In this document: positions 1-9,100 of the stretch, piece by piece
How positions within the stretch are numbered: the stretch's first letter is position 1
How the letters are laid out: each line of letters opens with the position of its first letter
Source: Streptococcus lutetiensis
Lineage (GTDB): Bacteria; Bacillota; Bacilli; Lactobacillales; Streptococcaceae
DNA: 64,000 nucleotides
NCBI RefSeq assembly: GCF_900475675.1
Contig: NZ_LS483403.1
Span: forward strand, 1,612,001-1,676,000
Reading direction: 5' to 3'
Notes under the pieces: generated by a model
Database searches by the model: none
Seen by the model: the letters and a program-made list of their open reading frames with translations, nothing else
What the model was told of the DNA's origin: nothing
Translations under genes and position numbers: made by a program

Positions 1-668
1 GCCAAAATAGGTCGAATCATTGGCAAAGTGATATAGAAGAAACGTTGACGACTGTTACAACCATCGATTTCAGCGGCTTCAAAAATATCTGGGCTAATTC
101 CCATAATAGCTGCCATCAACATGATTGTGGTATTACCAAACCACATCAAGAAGTTCATCACACCAACCAATGAACGTGTTCCAAGAGCAGATCCCATGAA
201 ATCAATCGGTTCTTTAATCCAACCAAGTGATTCCAAGATAGAATTGATAGGACCATTTGTTGAAAAGAGTGTGAAGAATAACATGGCAAAGGCTGACGCC
301 ATGATTAAGTTTGGCAAGTAAATGACAACTTTAAAGAATTGTCGTCCACGAATTTTAAGTCTTGCATCAACAAACCAGTTGGCAAGTAGCAAGGCAATAA
401 CAATCTGTGGAATAAAACCAATCAACCACATAATCATGGTATTTGCCGCATATTTCAACATATCTGAATGCAATAAGCTTACGTAGTTTTTTAGCCCAAC
501 AAAATTAGGCCCAATCTCTGTCATCCCTGAACGATAATATTCAAAGAAACTATACCGAATGGTGTCCACCAAAGGTATAAAAGAGAAAATGAAGAAAATT
601 AGGAAGAAGGGAAGGATGAAAATATATCCCCATTTCCCATAATCTATACGCTTACGTCTTTTTTTCAT
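1..668 (-). CDS. ABC sugar transporter permease (MalF type), partial
   Basis: Membrane permease of a CUT1-type carbohydrate importer; the C-terminus is cut by the window edge, leaving about 222 residues. The N-terminus is basic (MKKRRKR) and followed by a hydrophobic segment, with further membrane segments after it. The permease/ATPase coupling EAA loop begins near the edge (EAAEIDGCNSRQRFFYITLP). The start at 668 follows a strong GGAGGAG site. It lies 160 bp downstream of the solute-binding lipoprotein gene on the same strand, so both should be one operon; a second permease is expected off the left edge. Substrate is inferred to be beta-glucan oligosaccharide from the neighbours. Confidence 0.9.
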   Translation of the reverse strand, partial: MKKRRKRIDYGKWGYIFILPFFLIFFIFSFIPLVDTIRYSFFEYYRSGMTEIGPNFVGLKNYVSLLHSDMLKYAANTMIMWLIGFIPQIVIALLLANWFVDARLKIRGRQFFKVVIYLPNLIMASAFAMLFFTLFSTNGPINSILESLGWIKEPIDFMGSALGTRSLVGVMNFLMWFGNTTIMLMAAIMGISPDIFEAAEIDGCNSRQRFFYITLPMIRPIL

Positions 669-828
669 CTTTATCACTCCTCCAAAATACGAGGAGCAAG
701 TCAGAATACCTTCCATCTGGAATCGATTTTCTAATTCGCTCCCGTAAGGTCTACCAAAATTCTAAAATCCTAATTAAATGCCCCAATTTTTTCAAATAGT
801 ACTTAAGTCTGGGACGATTAAGCTACTT

Positions 829-2196
829 TTAGTCTGGCCATTTAACATCTGTAATTTCTGGATAACGTTCTTTAATAGCTGTTTCAAAGTTTGATTTAGC
901 TTTGTTGTAGCTTACTTTACCTTGTAGGTAATCATTAAAGGCATTTTGAATCAATTCAACACAACCTTGGTCATATGATGACAATGGTGCAATCTTAATG
1001 TTTTCTGCAACTGGTGCGTAGTATGAATAAGCATTTTCACCACCAAGGAAATCTGATTTGAAGCTATCATCTTTAGCTGCTGCTTCCATACCAGATTTAG
1101 TATTTGTGAAGTCTTGGTAATCTTTAGAAATCTTCAAAAGGTTATCTTTATTAGCTGTCAAAGCTGTGATGATTTCTTTAACATGTTTAGGGTTATCAGT
1201 ACCTTCGGCACCATGGATATATGAACCACCCCAGTTGTATTCTTGTGGTGGATTTGTAACAGCCCAATCGCCATCTGCACCATCCCAATTTGATTTCAAA
1301 GTAAAGTCAATGCCCCAAGCTGGGAACAAGAATGAGAAGACTTTAGATTGTGAACCCATTGCTTTGTTCCAGTCGTCAGTCCATTGACCTTTAACTGTTT
1401 TATTGAAGTAACCAGCATCAAGCCACTCTTTAGAATCTTTAACCCAATTCATAATTTGTGGGTCAACACGAACTGTTGTTGAACCATCTTCAACCCATGG
1501 TTTAGAAATGCTATTACCGTACAAGCGGAATGTATCAGCATATGATGCAAATGTGTAGTAACCTTTATTAAGAAGTTCTTGTGATGTTGCTTTCATAGTA
1601 TCCCAGTCTTTAACTTTTTCACCAACTGCTGTTGGGTCATCAGTACCAAAGACATCTTTTGCAATATCACGACGATAGATTAGAACACCTGGACATGTTT
1701 GCCAAGTTGAACCGCGTTGAACGCCATCTTCATCAGAAGCTGTTTCTTTAGTGAATGCATATTGGTCAGCCAAATCTTTCTTAGGATCAATTCCTAAATC
1801 TTTCAAAGGCATTGCAACATTTGCTTTTTTAGAAGTGTATTTTCTCACGTAGTCAGTTTCTGACAAGAAGATATCAATCTTATCATCAGCAGAAGCTGAG
1901 TCTTGTTTTTCAAGTGCTTCATCCAATTTTTGTTGGTAAACACCATCTTGGTTTGGATTGATAATCCAGTGGATTTCACTACCGTCTTTTAGTTTAGTAA
2001 CTGTTCCATCTTTAGAAGTTGATTTAACTTCTGGATATACAGCTTCCACACGTTGACGGAATTCATCATTCCAAGAGTAGATGTTGATAACTTTGCCTTC
2101 TGCACCCGAAGCTGATGTACTTGATTTAGAAGAGCAACCAACCATTGTCCCTGCTGCAAGAGCAATCGCTATAAAAGCGCTTACTTTTTTGTTCAT
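829..2196 (-). CDS. ABC transporter solute-binding lipoprotein, probable beta-glucan oligosaccharide binding
   Basis: A 455-residue family 1 extracellular solute-binding protein. The signal peptide ends in a lipobox with Cys21 (TMVGC), so it is lipid-anchored outside the membrane. AAGGAGAAGG precedes the ATG. It is transcribed with the permease gene below it and diverges from two GH94 phosphorylases. The promoter has TATAAT at 2243-2248, no good -35, and an upstream box shared with the lichenase gene, which suggests activator control. Binding of cello- or mixed-linkage oligosaccharides is inferred from context, not from residues. Confidence 0.88.
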   Translation of the reverse strand: MNKKVSAFIAIALAAGTMVGCSSKSSTSASGAEGKVINIYSWNDEFRQRVEAVYPEVKSTSKDGTVTKLKDGSEIHWIINPNQDGVYQQKLDEALEKQDSASADDKIDIFLSETDYVRKYTSKKANVAMPLKDLGIDPKKDLADQYAFTKETASDEDGVQRGSTWQTCPGVLIYRRDIAKDVFGTDDPTAVGEKVKDWDTMKATSQELLNKGYYTFASYADTFRLYGNSISKPWVEDGSTTVRVDPQIMNWVKDSKEWLDAGYFNKTVKGQWTDDWNKAMGSQSKVFSFLFPAWGIDFTLKSNWDGADGDWAVTNPPQEYNWGGSYIHGAEGTDNPKHVKEIITALTANKDNLLKISKDYQDFTNTKSGMEAAAKDDSFKSDFLGGENAYSYYAPVAENIKIAPLSSYDQGCVELIQNAFNDYLQGKVSYNKAKSNFETAIKERYPEITDVKWPD

Positions 2197-2242: not shown

Positions 2243-2306
2243 ATTATAACGCTAATCCAAGAAGTGTTATATTATAATATTTTAAAAAATATCAGTTTTA
2301 TGACCT
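2243..2306 (-). promoter_or_regulatory. Promoter and upstream box of the ABC importer
   Basis: On the minus strand TATAAT lies at 2243-2248, with no recognisable -35 hexamer 17 bp upstream. At 2284-2306 is a 23-bp block identical at 21 positions to 9078-9100 upstream of the lichenase; its core is ATATCA-N3-TTATGA. Box-to--10 distance is 36 bp here and 47 bp at the lichenase, differing by about one helical turn. That spacing fits an activator site, which is inference. Confidence 0.55.
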
Positions 2307-2484
2307 TGTTTGAAAAAATTTTTATAAAAAATCACGCTTTTCTAATCTTTTTAATAGGTAAACCTTTTCATATAAAACGCCGTTTTTCCTATAAAATTAG
2401 GGTTTATGGCCACTTTTCTAACTTTATAAACCATAGTTTCCTAATAAAGTGCCATATGTAAAAAAAAATGATACTTCTTGAGTT

Positions 2485-2504
2485 AATATCATAATTATGA
2501 TATT
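2485..2504 (+). promoter_or_regulatory. 20-bp palindrome upstream of the GH94 operon
   Basis: A perfect dyad whose core is ATATCATAATTATGA (2486-2500), matching the ATATCA-N3-TTATGA boxes at the importer and lichenase promoters. It lies 72 bp upstream of the first phosphorylase start and is a likely operator for the same regulator. Confidence 0.5.
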
Positions 2505-2576
2505 TTTCTCTTCTTTTTTATTTCCTATAAGGCTAATTTCGACTAAAATATGGGGCAGAAGATAAAGGAGATAACT

Positions 2577-5273
2577 ATGAAGCCATTAACTTTTACTAAT
2601 AATAAGGGGGATTTCAAACTATCCCAAGCAGAAAATATCAGTTCTTTGTACTTTCCACTTGCCTCAGAAGTTGGACTAAAAAGTGCAGTCACTCCTAACT
2701 TGGGTGGGGATTCAAAAATCAATCAAGAAACTTTCCTATTAGAACCTGTCAGCGTGGATAACCTCCACAACAATCGTTCAACTCGAAATTTCTGGGTTCG
2801 CGACGACAAAGGAAATGTTTATTCTGCAACAGGTGCTTCTGCTAAGCAAGAAGCTCTACGTTTTTCAGATCAAGAAGAAAATTCTGTAGAAGCTGGTTTT
2901 ATGTGGCATACTATTGAACGTCAATCAGCTGACTTACCTTTAAAATCTACAATCACATCATTTGTTCCACAAGATGAAAATGTTGAAGTCATGCTTGTAA
3001 CACTTGAAAATTTATCTGATGCTGACCAAACTTTAACAGCATACGGTGCCATTCCGATTTTCGGACGTAGCGCTGATAATATCCGTGACCACCGAAATGT
3101 AACATCTATGCTTCACCGTATCAAAACTACAGATGAAGGTGTTTTAGTTTGTCCAACCATGTCATTTGATGAACGCGGTCACCAACTCAATCACCAAATT
3201 TACTACGTGCTTGGCTTTGATGACAAGGAAAAAACACCTGAAACATTCTATCCAACCGTAGAAATGTTTATCGGTGAAGGAGGAACATTTACTCATCCAG
3301 CTGCCGTTTATAAAGAAACAAGTGGCGTAGCAAGCGACAGCCATATCGATGGGCGCGAAGCCATGGGTGCCTTCAAATTTGAACCATTCACCTTAGCTGC
3401 TGGTCAAAGCAAAACTTTCATCCTATTAATGGGGATCAACGAAAATCAAGAACATATCCAAGCAGTCGCTCAAAAATATAAAAATCTTACGACTGTCGAA
3501 AAAACATTGCAAGAAACAAAAGATTACTGGCAAGAAAAAGTTGGAGTTGATTTCAAAACTGGCGACAGCGACTTTGATGGTTATATGAAATGGGTTTGTT
3601 TCCAACCATTCCTACGTCGTCTCTTTGGTTGTTCATTCCTTCCACACCATGACTATGGACGTGGCGGACGCGGTTGGCGTGATCTTTGGCAAGACTGCTT
3701 GTCACTACTTTTAATGGAACCAAAAACAGTTGGTGATATGATTGTCAACAACTACAAAGGAGTTCGTCTTGATGGTACCAACGCTACAATCATCGGTGAA
3801 GGTGATGGTAACTTCCTTGCTGATCGTAACGGTATCACACGTGTTTGGATGGACCACGCACTTTGGCCTTTAATGACAACAAAACTTTATATCGACCAAA
3901 CAGGCGATATCGATATCTTAACTAAAGAAGTTTCTTACTTTAAAGACCCACACGTCAAACGTGGTACTGAAATCGACCAAGACTGGAACGATGCCTACGG
4001 CAATGAACAACGTACTGCTGACGACGCTGTCTACACAGGTAGCATCCTAGAACACTTGTTAATCCAACATTTGACAGGATTCTATGAAGTTGGCGAACAC
4101 AATATCTATCGTCTCCGCGGAGCTGACTGGAATGATGCCCTTGATATGGCGGATAAAAATGGTGAAAGTGTTGCATTTACCGCTGCTTACTCTGGTAACT
4201 TGATGGAACTAGCAAGCCTTGTTCGCCTCCTAGAAAGCGAAACCAATACTGAATCTATCGAAATTCTTGAAGAAATCGGACTCTTGCTCAAAAAAGATTC
4301 TGATATCTACGATAATATCGAACGCAAGCACCAAATTCTTGATGCTTACACTAACCAATGCCTTCACAATGTGAAAGGACGCAAAATCAGAATTTCACTT
4401 TCTGAACTTGCTCTTAACCTCATTCAAAAAGCAGCTTGGTTGCGTCAACACCTTCAACAACAAGAATGGCTTGACTTTAACGACCAAGAAGGTTGCTACA
4501 ATAGCTACTACGACAACAGCAGCAAACCAACGGAGGGCTTCTACAATGACCGTATGCACATGATGTTGACTGGACAAGTCTTCCCTATCATGAACTACGT
4601 CGCTACAGATGAACAAATCCGTAAAATCACTGCCAGCGCTGACCACTACCTCTACCGCCCAGAAATCGGTGGCTACCGCCTCAATACAGATTTTAAAGAA
4701 ATCAAAACAGACCTTGGACGTATGTTTGGTTTTGCTTACGGTGAAAAAGAAAACGGTGCTGTCTTCTCTCACATGACTGTTATGTATGCTAATGCGCTTT
4801 ACCGTCGTGGCTTTGCCAAAGAAGGTTGGAAAGCTCTTAAGACACTATCTGATACAGCTCTAAAATTTGAAACTAGCCGTATCTATCCAGGAATTCCTGA
4901 ATACTTCCGTGCAGATGGTCGAGGAGTTTATCACTATCTAACTGGTGCAGCAAGCTGGTACATGTTGACAATGGTTACTGAAGCCTTTGGTGTTCACGGT
5001 AAAGCAGGTGACTTTGTCCTTTATCCAAAACTTCTTGCAGAACAATTCGACGAAAATGGACGTGCAAGTATCACAACTCAATTTGCTGATAAAACCTTCC
5101 AAATCCACTACGATAATCCAAATCAAAAAGATTTTGGAAAATACATTATCAAAAAAGCCACTTGTGATAGCCAAGAAATCGATATTACGGATGATGCTTT
5201 TGCCTTTATCACAAAAGCTGACCTTGCTAACCTAAGCGACGAGGTTCATGAAATTGTCATTACACTAGATTAA
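2577..5273 (+). CDS. GH94 family glycoside phosphorylase, possible laminaribiose/beta-1,3-oligoglucan phosphorylase
   Basis: Intracellular inverting phosphorylase releasing alpha-glucose-1-phosphate. I start at 2577 (898 residues) because AAGGAG sits six bases upstream; an in-frame ATG at 2550 has no such site. The GH94 DWND motif holding the catalytic acid region is at residues 517-520. There is no signal peptide. It lies 20 bp before the cellobiose phosphorylase gene, so the two are an operon. About 900 residues is longer than cellobiose phosphorylase and near the size of known laminaribiose phosphorylases. The lichenase next door yields oligosaccharides with a beta-1,3 bond, so beta-1,3 specificity is plausible. 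Cellodextrin or other GH94 specificity is not excluded. Confidence 0.85.
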   Translation: MKPLTFTNNKGDFKLSQAENISSLYFPLASEVGLKSAVTPNLGGDSKINQETFLLEPVSVDNLHNNRSTRNFWVRDDKGNVYSATGASAKQEALRFSDQEENSVEAGFMWHTIERQSADLPLKSTITSFVPQDENVEVMLVTLENLSDADQTLTAYGAIPIFGRSADNIRDHRNVTSMLHRIKTTDEGVLVCPTMSFDERGHQLNHQIYYVLGFDDKEKTPETFYPTVEMFIGEGGTFTHPAAVYKETSGVASDSHIDGREAMGAFKFEPFTLAAGQSKTFILLMGINENQEHIQAVAQKYKNLTTVEKTLQETKDYWQEKVGVDFKTGDSDFDGYMKWVCFQPFLRRLFGCSFLPHHDYGRGGRGWRDLWQDCLSLLLMEPKTVGDMIVNNYKGVRLDGTNATIIGEGDGNFLADRNGITRVWMDHALWPLMTTKLYIDQTGDIDILTKEVSYFKDPHVKRGTEIDQDWNDAYGNEQRTADDAVYTGSILEHLLIQHLTGFYEVGEHNIYRLRGADWNDALDMADKNGESVAFTAAYSGNLMELASLVRLLESETNTESIEILEEIGLLLKKDSDIYDNIERKHQILDAYTNQCLHNVKGRKIRISLSELALNLIQKAAWLRQHLQQQEWLDFNDQEGCYNSYYDNSSKPTEGFYNDRMHMMLTGQVFPIMNYVATDEQIRKITASADHYLYRPEIGGYRLNTDFKEIKTDLGRMFGFAYGEKENGAVFSHMTVMYANALYRRGFAKEGWKALKTLSDTALKFETSRIYPGIPEYFRADGRGVYHYLTGAASWYMLTMVTEAFGVHGKAGDFVLYPKLLAEQFDENGRASITTQFADKTFQIHYDNPNQKDFGKYIIKKATCDSQEIDITDDAFAFITKADLANLSDEVHEIVITLD

Positions 5274-5293
5274 GAAAAAGAAAGGATTTTCTC

Positions 5294-7705
5294 ATGAAAT
5301 ACGGTTATTTTGATGACGTTAATCGCGAATATGTCATCAACCATCCAAACACACCCAAACCTTGGGTCAACTACCTTGGTTCCCCAGAATACGGTGCCAT
5401 TATCTCAAACAACGCTGGCGGTTACAGCTTTGCTAAATCAGGTGCCAATGGACGCATTTTACGCTACGTCTTCAATAACTTTGACCAACCAGGTCGCTAC
5501 ATCTACCTTCGAGACGATGATACCAAAGACTTCTGGTCTGCCTCATGGCAACCTGTTGGTAAAGACCTTAAAGACTACCACAGTGAATGCCACCATGGTA
5601 TGGGCTACACTAAAATGATTGCTAATTACTCTGGCATTCATTCAAAAGCCAGCTACTATGTGCCAAAAGATAAAAGCTATGAAGTTTGGGCAATTACCGT
5701 TACTAACCGTTCTGAACAAACTCGCCATTTAACACTAACTGGTTACGCTGAATTTACCAACCACAGCAACTACGAACAAGACCAAGTTAACCTACAATAT
5801 TCACTTTTTATTACACGCACACTTTTCCAAGATAACCGCATCATCCAACAAATCCACGGAAATCTTGATACCCTTGATGACAGCGAACAAGTTGATGAAA
5901 AGAATGTTACTGAACGTTTCTTCGGTCTTAGCGGTGCTAGCGTCAGCTCATATTGTGGAGACAAAAAAGGCTTCTTAGGCGGCTACAACGGCTACGACAA
6001 ACCTGTTGGTGTCACATCAGGAGACCTCGGCAACCAAACAAGCTACAATGAAAATGCTTGTGGTGCCCTTTCAAGTAAAGTCACTCTTGAACCTCAAGAA
6101 AGCAAAACACTTGTCTTTCTTCTTGGTGAAAAATCATCACAAGAAGCTGCCGAAATCCTAGAACATTACAAACACCCTGCAGAAACTGTTGAAGCAGAAA
6201 TTCAAGAACTTCGCAAAGAATGGGAAGACCGCTTGACTAACCTACAAGTCAATACACCTAGCCCAGAATTCAACACTATGCTTAACACTTGGAACGCTTA
6301 TAACTGTTACATGACCTTTATCTGGTCACGCGCAGCATCATTTGTTTACTGTGGTCTTCGTAACGGTTATGGTTACCGTGACACCGTTCAAGATATTCAA
6401 GGTATCATTCACTTGAAACCTGAAATGGCTGCCGAAAAAATTCGTTTCATGTTATCAGCTCAAGTTGACAACGGTGGCGGACTTCCACTTGTAAAATTCA
6501 CTCACAACCCAGGACATGAAGACACACCAGATGACGCTTCTTACGTTCAAGAAACTGGGCACCCAGCTTACCGTGCTGATGATGCTCTCTGGCTCTTCCC
6601 AACAGTTTACAAATACATTTCTGAAACAGGAAACCTTGCTTTCCTTGATGAAGTGATTCCATTTGCCAATAAAGGCGAGGCTAGTGTTTACGAACACTTA
6701 AAAGGTGCTGTGCAATTCTCACTTGACCACCTTGGACCACACGGCATGCCTGCTGGACTTTATGCCGACTGGAATGACTGCCTTCGTCTCGGTGCCAATG
6801 GTGAATCATCATTCGTTGCTTTACAATTCTACTATGCTCTAAGCGTCTTGCGTAAATTTGCCAAAGCCAAAGAAGATACTGACTACCTTACTTTCCTCGA
6901 CTCTGAGCAAGAGAAAATGGGACAAAAAATTCAAGACCTCTGTTGGGATAATGACCGCTTCATTCGTGGCTTTACCGAAGCTGGCGAACGTATCGGTGCA
7001 GCTGATGACCCCGAAGCTAACATGTGGCTAAACCCTCAAAGTTGGGCTGTTATCAGTGGCTTTGCTGATAAAGAACAAGCTGAACTTGCCATGAACAATG
7101 TCTACGAGCAACTTAACACTGATTATGGTGCCATCCTCATGAACCCACCATATCACGCTCACGCATTCGACGGGGCCCTTGCCGTTATCTACAACCAAGG
7201 GACAAAAGAAAATGCAGGTATCTTCTCACAATCACAAGGCTGGTTAATCCTAGCTGAAGCCCTACGCGGACAGGGTCAACGTGCCTTTACTTACTTTATG
7301 GAAAATGCCCCAGCTGGTCAAAATGACCGTGCAGAGATTCGCCAACTAGAACCTTACTGTTATGGCCAATTCACAGAAGGTCCTGCTAGCCCACACTTCG
7401 GACGTTCACACGTTCACTGGCTCACAGGTACAGCATCAACTATCATGGTTGGTTGTGTGGAAGGTATCTTGGGACTTCGCCCCGACTTAAGCGGATTAAA
7501 ACTCTCACCAGCCATTCCAAAAGAATGGGATAACTTCAGCATGACTAAGATTTTCCGTGGCAAAGAACTTCACATCACTGTGGAAAATCCAAACCACAAG
7601 GAAACAGGCTTTACAAAACTTATCCTAAACGGCAAGGAACTTGACCAAGCCTATCTTCCTGAAGAACTCTTACAAGACACTAACCAAATCACTCTTACCC
7701 TATAA
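5294..7705 (+). CDS. Cellobiose phosphorylase (GH94)
   Basis: Cytoplasmic phosphorolysis of cellobiose to glucose-1-phosphate and glucose. The protein has 803 residues, the usual family size, and opens with the typical cellobiose-phosphorylase N-terminus (MKYGYFDDVNREYVI). The catalytic-acid motif ADWND is at residues 491-495. AAAGGA precedes the ATG and the gap to the upstream GH94 gene is 20 bp. A terminator follows directly. With the binding protein and lichenase it completes a route from extracellular glucan to glycolysis that saves ATP. Confidence 0.93.
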   Translation: MKYGYFDDVNREYVINHPNTPKPWVNYLGSPEYGAIISNNAGGYSFAKSGANGRILRYVFNNFDQPGRYIYLRDDDTKDFWSASWQPVGKDLKDYHSECHHGMGYTKMIANYSGIHSKASYYVPKDKSYEVWAITVTNRSEQTRHLTLTGYAEFTNHSNYEQDQVNLQYSLFITRTLFQDNRIIQQIHGNLDTLDDSEQVDEKNVTERFFGLSGASVSSYCGDKKGFLGGYNGYDKPVGVTSGDLGNQTSYNENACGALSSKVTLEPQESKTLVFLLGEKSSQEAAEILEHYKHPAETVEAEIQELRKEWEDRLTNLQVNTPSPEFNTMLNTWNAYNCYMTFIWSRAASFVYCGLRNGYGYRDTVQDIQGIIHLKPEMAAEKIRFMLSAQVDNGGGLPLVKFTHNPGHEDTPDDASYVQETGHPAYRADDALWLFPTVYKYISETGNLAFLDEVIPFANKGEASVYEHLKGAVQFSLDHLGPHGMPAGLYADWNDCLRLGANGESSFVALQFYYALSVLRKFAKAKEDTDYLTFLDSEQEKMGQKIQDLCWDNDRFIRGFTEAGERIGAADDPEANMWLNPQSWAVISGFADKEQAELAMNNVYEQLNTDYGAILMNPPYHAHAFDGALAVIYNQGTKENAGIFSQSQGWLILAEALRGQGQRAFTYFMENAPAGQNDRAEIRQLEPYCYGQFTEGPASPHFGRSHVHWLTGTASTIMVGCVEGILGLRPDLSGLKLSPAIPKEWDNFSMTKIFRGKELHITVENPNHKETGFTKLILNGKELDQAYLPEELLQDTNQITLTL

Positions 7706-7707
7706 AG

Positions 7708-7735
7708 GAAACTGGGACTTGTTCCCAGTTTTTTT
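7708..7735 (+). terminator. Terminator of the phosphorylase operon
   Basis: Inverted repeat ACTGGGA/TTCCCAGT followed by a run of seven T, starting three bases after the stop codon. Confidence 0.85.
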
Positions 7736-8084
7736 ATGGCTTCATTTTAAAAAAAGTCCCTTCTCTAAGGCAAAATCATCTCTTATAAGAGTCATTAAGA
7801 ATGATTGTATATTTTATTCAGCCAAAGCAATTACTGCGTCAAATCGCCTTTTATAGCTGCTATAAGATGAGCCTACACAGGCTTATCAAGCCACCAATCA
7901 ATTGATTCTACTCATCATAAAAAAGGAACTGAGACAAGCTCAGCTCCTTTTATCGTTAATGTTTAAAAAGAAAGAATTTTAAAGAGTTATTTTGTTGAGA
8001 GAGATTTTAACCGATTTATTTGGGGAGTGTAGTTATAATCAGTTAAATAAAAACAAATTGTTATTTGGTTACTGTCTAGCTTTA
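7736..8084. other. Spacer between phosphorylase and lichenase genes
   Basis: About 350 bp without a supportable gene. It contains only the lichenase terminator at 7918-7950. Short ORFs across the spacer on the plus strand have no ribosome site or recognisable sequence. Confidence 0.6.
7918..7950 (-). terminator. Terminator of the lichenase gene
   Basis: Stem GGAGCTGAG/CTCAGTTCC, read on the minus strand, followed by TTTTTT. It lies 134 bp past the lichenase stop. Confidence 0.75.
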
Positions 8085-8804
8085 TTAAAATTGGTCGTAG
8101 CTAATCCAGTCATAGTATCCATACAAAGGAGTTTGACCATTGTATGGAGCCAACCATGCATCTGCGCCTTTTTCTGGCCAAGCATTCATCATAATCTTAC
8201 CAGGTGTGCTAGGAATATCATTGTAAGCAGTATAAACAGCTCTTCCATCAACATACCAAGTAATGTGATTAGCTTGCCAATCAAAACCATAAGTATGGAA
8301 GCCTTGAGAGGCATCAAATCCTAAATTGTGAAGATGCACGTGTTCATCTTTTTGACCTCTACCATGAGTAAAGTAGTTGAATTGAACTTTTGTTGTATCT
8401 TTCCCTAAAAATTCAATGTCAATTTCATCCCAAGGTTTGCCTTCACTCGGACCAGTATAAGTGAAGAATGAAGAAACGACACCTGGATTTTTAATAGGTT
8501 TCATGTTCACTTGATAAAGACCATAGCCGAAGCGTTCTTTACTACGCCATTCGCCCCCAGTGTAGCCACCACGACCATCACTGTCAATTTTAAGACTCAT
8601 CAAACCGTTATTAAAGCCGACATTTCCAGGGACAAAATTACAATTAAACATACTTCCATTGGAACCATTACGAAGTTCCATGGTATTACCATTATAGTAA
8701 TTTAGTTCTTGACTATAGTGGTATTTGCTTTGCGCATCAACACCTTGTTGAAAACCAAAGAGAGCCAATAAGAGAACAATTAAACAACTAACTTTTTTTC
8801 ACAT
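8085..8804 (-). CDS. Secreted lichenase, endo-beta-1,3-1,4-glucanase (GH16), start region frameshifted
   Basis: Cleaves mixed-linkage beta-glucan outside the cell. The catalytic GH16 motif DEIDIEF is intact; counting from the TTG at 8768, E115 is the nucleophile and E119 the acid/base. The mature domain (from about QSKYHY) is complete. The ribosome site TTGAGG precedes an ATG at 8804 and an overlapping GTG at 8802. The ATG is followed at once by TGA, and the GTG frame hits TAG after an A7 tract (8793-8799). With A6 or A9 the GTG would read M-K-K-(K)[13 protein letters not shown], a normal signal peptide. So the gene is off by one base here: real mutation, phase switch or sequencing error. The only in-frame alternative start, TTG at 8768, removes the signal's basic end. 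Confidence 0.85.
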
Positions 8805-9025
8805 AATAATACCTCAATTTTAATCGTTTTTAAAAAGGAGTTCTGTCAGAAAAAGGAACTAATCTCCTCTACTACAGATTGAAAACGCCTAATCAGTCGT
8901 AGTTAAATTCACTTTTTCTTTTCAGTAACTGTTACTTCAAAAATGGGGCAATTTTTTCTTTTTCATATTCCGAAAAGAATGCTAGTCACACGATAAATGT
9001 TTCTCTTTAAAACCCTCCTTACACC
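8805..9025 (-). other. Long 5' leader of the lichenase gene
   Basis: About 215 nt lie between the predicted transcription start (near 9019) and the start codon. I see no known riboswitch. A partial cre-like string (half matching CGTTTTCA) occurs near 8877-8893, but its left half does not fit. Confidence 0.35.
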
Positions 9026-9100
9026 ATTATATCATAAGTATAGTGCTTTTATTTTAGATAATATATTATATTCCCACAAAAAATATCAAATTTATGACCT
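9026..9100 (-). promoter_or_regulatory. Promoter and upstream box of lichenase
   Basis: Extended -10 TATGATATAAT on the minus strand (hexamer 9026-9031) without a fair -35. The 23-bp box at 9078-9100 matches 2284-2306 at 21 of 23 positions. The box lies between the terminator of the next gene (9115-9165) and this promoter, as expected for a lichenase-specific control site. The transcript would carry a leader of about 215 nt. Confidence 0.55.

Follow-up and report, generated by a model that had tools for sequence, protein, structure and literature searches.

At the left end of the window, the whole 64,000-nucleotide stretch of DNA analysed here, the gene of an ABC importer substrate-binding protein (829..2196, minus strand) is followed by a permease gene of the BPD_transp_1 family (permease 1; 1..716, minus strand), which continues left of the window, where a second permease gene, a GH16 frame and an AraC-family gene are found. 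The binding protein had no Pfam or NCBIfam match at an E-value of 0.001, and its role was assigned from its neighbours and relatives. On the other side lie two GH94 phosphorylase genes identified by family match, the larger GH94a (2577..5273, plus strand) and the smaller GH94b (5294..7705, plus strand), which we take to be cellodextrin-phosphorylase-like and cellobiose-phosphorylase-like, respectively. The next gene of the set, a GH16 lichenase (8085..8768, minus strand), matched the NCBIfam model BGlucanaseBglS above its cut-off. A longer lichenase frame is interrupted, within 8768-8810 (minus strand), by a stop as its second codon, whereas loci L015-L017 have an open frame at that point, beginning with a signal-peptide-like stretch. 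The strain of the window may have little secreted lichenase despite an intact promoter. The importer cluster has another GH16 gene, left of the window (L011:5713-6900, minus strand), which contains stops in the part upstream of its catalytic frame, and in L015-L017 a stop is likewise present about 10 codons upstream of the matched part.

The initial annotation of this DNA had placed a shared box at 2289-2303, 2486-2500 and 9083-9097, and a pattern scan of the 64-kb window found an exact ATATCANNNTTATGA at each of these positions; the identity of 21 out of 23 bases claimed for the importer and lichenase blocks likewise holds, by eye, for 2284-2306 compared with 9078-9100. The conserved unit is a 19-bp box, GTCATRANTNTGAYATTTT in the sense of transcription, and all three copies are oriented alike relative to their own gene. 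Read along transcription, the predicted activator boxes are GTCATAAAACTGATATTTT at the importer promoter (2286..2304, minus strand), ATCATAATTATGATATTTT at the phosphorylase promoter (2488..2506, plus strand) and GTCATAAATTTGATATTTT at the lichenase promoter (9080..9098, minus strand). The phosphorylase copy overlaps a perfect 18-bp palindrome (2486-2503) and therefore also matches on the minus strand (2489-2503); as this palindrome is absent from most other species' copies, it was treated as incidental.

With up to two mismatches to ATATCANNNTTATGA, 26 sites were counted in the window against a mean of 11.1 in shuffled sequence, and none of 100 window shuffles reached 26. A weight matrix of the box, built from 134 homologous promoters, gave its top scores in the window to the lichenase (26.3 bits), importer (23.4 bits) and phosphorylase (18.7 bits) copies, the sole other match above 8 bits being the reverse reading of the palindromic copy (8.2 bits). 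In the whole 1.79-Mb genome (G000, one contig), exact ATATCANNNTTATGA yielded seven matches at six places, three of them within the window, and the reversed-pattern control yielded none. The three places off the window are a gap that runs into the beginning of an ORF, dnaJ-like by eye, a stretch between listed ORFs, and the inside of an ORF that by eye looks phage-borne. Allowing two mismatches, the genome gave 32 matches versus seven in the control. Three other one-mismatch sites in G000 lie inside open frames and were not counted as regulon members; one more one-mismatch site is located at 562362.

The distance from the box to the -10 was determined as the best offset between 35 and 39, counted from the last base of the 19-mer, with a match of 5/6 or better regarded as a -10; the window and two misplaced importer rows (L022, L024) were among the rows. 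On this basis, 68 of 73 importer rows had a -10 at 37-39 bp. In 59 of 62 GH94a rows and in six of seven GH94b rows it was located at 37-38 bp, and in all five lichenase rows as well as in the single Lachnospiraceae GH16 row (1/1) at 37 bp. All three window promoters have their -10 at 37 bp, namely TATAAT for the importer (2243..2248, minus strand; without a recognizable -35), TAAAAT for the phosphorylases (2544..2549, plus strand) and TATACT for the lichenase (9037..9042, minus strand). A scan of offsets 0-69 in the GH94a promoters gave peaks at 37 (39/61) and 38 (19/61), with no other peak above 5. In the importer promoters the scan likewise peaked at 37 (51/72) and 38 (15/72), with further peaks at 9 (44/72) and 14 (42/72), both at a conserved TAATATA, and at 2 (15/72). 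Because of the TATAAT-like letters at offsets 9 and 14, the importer -10 is not unique by sequence alone.

A proximal TATAAT, 12 bp after TGATAT and constant in the importer and lichenase promoters, was at first favoured as the -10, but was rejected since the TAATATA stretch has no TATAAT counterpart in the GH94a promoters and the -10 at 37-38 bp is common to the promoter types examined; the proximal stretch is a possible second site. The initial annotation had further given box-to--10 distances of 36 and 47 bp for the importer and lichenase promoters, about one helical turn apart. Both distances are present in the sequence, but the 47-bp TATAAT of the lichenase promoter is missing in the four other lichenase promoters examined. 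The helical-turn offset had to be abandoned, as 5/5 lichenase promoters have a TATACT with the same spacing as at the importer, and the phosphorylase promoter too has its -10 at this spacing. As to the -35, the best match to TTGACA averaged 2.43 out of 6 over 69 importer promoters (shuffled, 2.70) and 2.63 out of 6 over 60 GH94a promoters (shuffled, 2.59), so that in neither set did it stand above shuffled expectation.

When the matrix was shifted along the promoters, a displacement of 20 bp most often scored best in the GH94a set (31 of 63 promoters; 21 bp in 13). In the importer set it scored best in 19 of 71 promoters, on a par with 11 bp (17/71). The repeat at +20 may represent a weak second site over the -35 position; this is suggested by the aggregate signal, not proven, and in the window the +20 copies score -34 versus 23 bits for the main box at the importer, -28 versus 19 at the phosphorylases and -25 versus 26 at the lichenase. 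The predicted weak sites, each 20 bp downstream of its box, would be 2266..2284 (minus strand) for the importer and 9060..9078 (minus strand) for the lichenase, both containing TAATATA, and 2508..2526 (plus strand) for the phosphorylases, the last from the aggregate over 63 GH94a promoters.

Conservation of the box was assessed at the loci of the best 80 of 209 relatives of the binding protein, each retrieved together with flanks of at most 10 kb. Eight of these loci are streptococcal (S. equinus twice, S. vicugnae, S. caballi, S. orisratti, S. henryi, S. porci and one further species), and the other 72 are titled Lachnospiraceae, Blautia, Gemmiger, Faecalibacterium and similar. Counting as a box any match with at most two mismatches to GTCATRANTNTGAYATTTT within 350 bp upstream, 77 of the 80 importer genes, from streptococci to Lachnospiraceae, are preceded by one: 75 were scored automatically, and the boxes of L022 and L024, at -115 and -116, were found by reading the nearer stretch. 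In L058, L070 and L080 the importer gene showed no box within these limits. Random windows of the same loci gave 10 hits in 1463, and the reversed motif upstream of the importer gave none in 80. One of the two GH94 genes is boxed in 74 of 80 loci by automatic count; the miss at L016 reflects only a split GH94a alignment, the box being present there, and in L025, L026, L045, L048, L074 and L094, which have another gene order, it is GH94b, now leading the rearranged pair, that carries the phosphorylase box upstream. Lack of conservation in related species had been named as grounds for giving up the proposal; the box proved to be conserved far beyond the genus.

The regulator gene had been stated to be absent from the window, and a candidate was indeed located outside it: an AraC-family gene (genome position 1608763-1609554) that lies 2.4 kb beyond the left edge of the window, closes the importer cluster on its downstream side and is probably co-transcribed. 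When the ORFs of at least 110 residues from the 80 loci were clustered into families, those present in at least 10 loci were the binding protein (77), GH94a (75), the two permeases (75 and 75), GH94b (73), the AraC family (64) and a further large protein (61), the next regulator family after AraC being found in six loci. By tblastn the AraC gene was detected in 69 of 80 loci, all 69 of which are boxed at the importer or GH94. No histidine kinase was found among the ORF clusters present in at least six of the 80 loci. A protein of about 820 residues, conserved at 61/80 loci, resembles by eye a GH3 beta-glucosidase. Just upstream of the AraC gene, TGGTAATCGTTTACA (L011:5571-5585, minus strand), presumably a cre-like sequence, suggests catabolite control by CcpA.

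The candidate regulator matched PF12833 (HTH_18; 78.7 bits) and PF00165 (HTH_AraC; 75.9 bits), both above cut-off. Like AraC/XylS proteins, it ends in a DNA-binding domain of about 100 residues that contains two helix-turn-helix motifs, and its fold matches AraC-family domains. The N-terminal part had no Pfam match, and neither a cupin nor a receiver domain was detected in it. Arabinose-type AraC carries an N-terminal cupin sugar-binding domain; the N-terminal part here, predicted to be all-helical, sets the protein apart from that type, and the presence of only HTH families in Pfam sets it apart from the YesN/CuaR type, in which a receiver domain precedes the AraC domain and a histidine kinase is linked. 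The score with TIGR04094 (YSIRK-adjacent surface antigen regulators) was 134.4 bits, the cut-off being 200. AlphaFold2 was run on 46 of 68 extracted regulators, the first row being that of L015, which is 98% identical to that of G000, and returned a model consisting of helices throughout (mean pLDDT 82.8, pTM 0.49). Among the best 50 of 227 fold matches, the close ones were DNA-binding domains of about 100 residues (AraT, YesN, MarA and others) and longer ones, e.g. Rns, were near a TM score of 0.4; judged from the model, the N-terminal part appeared to have no clear structural relative among these 50.

In all 46 regulators the recognition helices keep the residues SxxYLSR and FSSQSHFI without change, in keeping with the constant box. 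A GACA variant of the importer box accompanies regulators that are 49-61% identical (eight loci versus 58). Such co-variation of regulator and box was discarded as evidence, as the recognition-helix residues are unchanged and six of the eight GACA loci keep GTCA at GH94b.

Specificity within the genus was examined in 147 Streptococcus genomes, six of which possess the AraC gene when called at an E-value of 1e-60. The exact core TCATRANNNTGAYATTTTT gave 18 matches in 13 of the 147 genomes (reversed control, 5); 10 of these are at the locus and eight elsewhere, each of the eight in a genome without the AraC gene, and all nine exact core matches in genomes with the AraC gene sit at the locus. Two genomes in which the AraC gene is present, G112 and G143, have no exact core and carry boxes with one or two mismatches at the locus. 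When one mismatch was allowed in seven streptococcal genomes, 13 of 32 matches were at the locus and 19 elsewhere (control, 8), and the one-mismatch pattern is thus less specific than the exact core. These counts bear on the objection that the box might be common at unrelated sites. G037 (L160) has a box before the lichenase and no AraC gene at E 1e-60. Reading of 20 kb of this locus revealed that the importer, the AraC gene and the first half of GH94a are gone, and since the importer and part of GH94a are missing as well, the exception fits decay of the locus. GH94b of L160 is split over two frames, and the lichenase box and -10 remain.

A search of ten genomes of the source loci with one mismatch to GTCATRANTNTGAYATTTT gave 21 matches (control, 1), of which, by position arithmetic, 18 are at importer or GH94 promoters, one is before a surface protein and two are elsewhere. 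The boxed surface protein has 1270 residues with GH16, CBM_4_9 and Big_2 domains. A stricter pattern, the exact box followed after 35-38 bp by TATRAT, was applied to 299 genomes around the Lachnospiraceae genome G147 and gave 17 matches in 12 genomes and none in the control. All 17 precede an importer binding protein (nine), GH94a (five) or a surface GH16 protein (three). Eight of the nine boxed binding proteins are 71-79% identical, and the ninth (L176; 39%) adjoins GH94a; two of the three surface GH16 proteins also contain CBM_4_9, and the third runs off its contig. Seven of the 17 matches share sequence with the 80 source loci; the 10 new ones are all at such genes. Relatives of the importer were also searched for in the genus to which G153 (Blautia massiliensis) belongs; in its 64 genomes, 13/13 importer orthologues (72-79% identity) are boxed with the -10 at 37-38 bp, and 17/17 importer paralogues (39-45%, tblastn) are without a box, at least five mismatches being found; seven of the 13 orthologues share sequence with the source loci and six do not.

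The box, its spacing, its conservation, its specificity and its linkage to the AraC gene, all of them read from sequence, point to an AraC-family activator that turns on a beta-glucan regulon by binding to the box, a reading to which we assign a probability of roughly 0.86. The earlier proposal of an activator box for such a regulon, with the regulator gene outside the window, is supported by the comparative evidence. In this model the 19-bp box would be the main operator of a transcription activator encoded at 1608763-1609554 and composed of a DNA-binding domain with two helix-turn-helix motifs and an all-helical N-terminal part in which no sensor domain is recognized. The protein would contact the box directly at about -68 to -50, reckoned from the -10. 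A weaker contact, which may also be made in the window promoters, would be with a direct repeat lying 20 bp closer to the gene (about -48 to -30), at the place of the -35. It would thereby recruit RNA polymerase to promoters which have a -10 at a fixed distance and lack a -35, so that beta-glucan oligosaccharides, as the presumed inducer, would on arrival turn on the GH16 lichenase, the importer and the two cytoplasmic GH94 phosphorylases together.

The same boxes could in principle be the operator of a repressor, or the AraC-type protein might itself repress, with beta-glucan lifting the repression. Their closeness to the core promoter would suit this, as would the perfect palindrome of the phosphorylase copy, a form frequent in repressor operators. 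However, the palindrome is not shared by most other species, the main box stops, on the upstream side, about 14 bp short of the -35 position as placed from the -10, the lack of a -35 and the -10 spacing kept over deep divergence fit activation, and the linked regulator belongs to the AraC family; repression is therefore improbable. A different regulator might read the box, either an unlinked one or the OmpR-type two-component pair whose response regulator and histidine kinase genes adjoin the AraC gene in G000 and L015-L017. Among the eight streptococcal loci, however, only L015-L017 have close relatives of this pair (at least 88%) as neighbours, L019 having a 35% similar one several kilobases off on the other side, and response-regulator ORFs occur in 6/80 loci versus 64/80 for the AraC family. 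Together with the confinement of the nine exact core boxes of the six AraC-gene genomes, among 147, to the locus, this makes another reader very unlikely.

That the three boxes are due to chance, or are a generic promoter element of AT-rich DNA, hardly deserves credence: the same genes are boxed across distant genera, the 299-genome search was specific in 17 of 17 cases with an empty control, and paralogous importers are without the box. These observations outweigh the AT-richness of the genome, the excess of two-mismatch matches in G000 over its control and the eight exact core matches in streptococci without the regulator. We further consider it an evenly balanced question whether the AraC protein with its new all-helical sensor, the 19-bp box and the 37-bp geometry form a self-contained beta-glucan module that is intact between gut Clostridia and rumen-type streptococci and probably moved with its targets, box and -10 alone sufficing to find a genome's beta-glucan enzymes.

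Oat and barley beta-glucan is a common component of dietary fibre and feed, and to our knowledge the control of its use in Firmicutes has been little described. The present analysis yields a candidate regulator gene with its predicted binding site, the exact positions of the promoters and a predicted regulon transferable from one strain to many, and in the 299-genome search the pattern located beta-glucan enzymes from DNA alone. The geometry of the box resembles that of AraC at araBAD, where the activator sites I1 and I2 are direct repeats separated by about two helical turns and the nearer site overlaps the -35. The systems differ in that the repeat here is 20 bp with a weak nearer copy, and in the all-helical N-terminal part without a Pfam match. 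By sequence as well as by fold, the best solved-structure match of the DNA-binding part is AraT of Geobacillus stearothermophilus (6swi); AraT is titled a response regulator, and 6swi covers its DNA-binding part only.

A similar set of genes has been described in B. producta (bp1313-bp1318), where, according to the accessible part of the report, enzyme and importer genes are induced on barley beta-glucan and the locus comprises a GH16 beta-glucanase with four CBM4 modules, GH94, an AraC-type gene, a binding protein and ABC genes (PMC10318527). The AraC gene itself was little changed and its protein undetected; that part assigns no binding site, and the word promoter is absent from the text (PMC10318527). 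The likeness of the present locus to that of B. producta is one of gene content alone (GH16, GH94, AraC-type gene, binding protein and permeases), and it is other Blautia genomes that carry the box and spacing. In other Clostridia the box precedes surface proteins with GH16 and CBM_4_9, and the B. producta locus, as far as described in the accessible part, has a GH16 with CBM4. CuaR of Ruminiclostridium cellulolyticum, an AraC/XylS-type protein, activates an ABC importer and a GH94 cellobiose phosphorylase, as given in the part of the paper seen (PMC5663094). As described there, CuaR is a response regulator, accompanied by a sensor kinase as well as by a second binding protein (CuaS/CuaR; PMC5663094); the regulator here differs in having only HTH matches in Pfam and no receiver domain. 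The accessible part of a review on hemicellulase regulation contains nothing on this locus (PMC10766802), and no description of the 19-bp box was found among the matches listed in a literature search mostly outside subscription journals. The regulon proposed here is a new one of this general kind, with an apparently one-component regulator.

Two minor observations concern related sequences in other genomes. Upstream of the paralogous importers of L195, L198 and L211 a related but different box of the GTCAGAAATCTGGCAAAAT type is present, perhaps the site of a paralogous AraC regulator. At L163:3635, in a Lachnospiraceae genome, a one-mismatch box is located before two genes which by eye are lipoprotein-like and large membrane-sensor-like.
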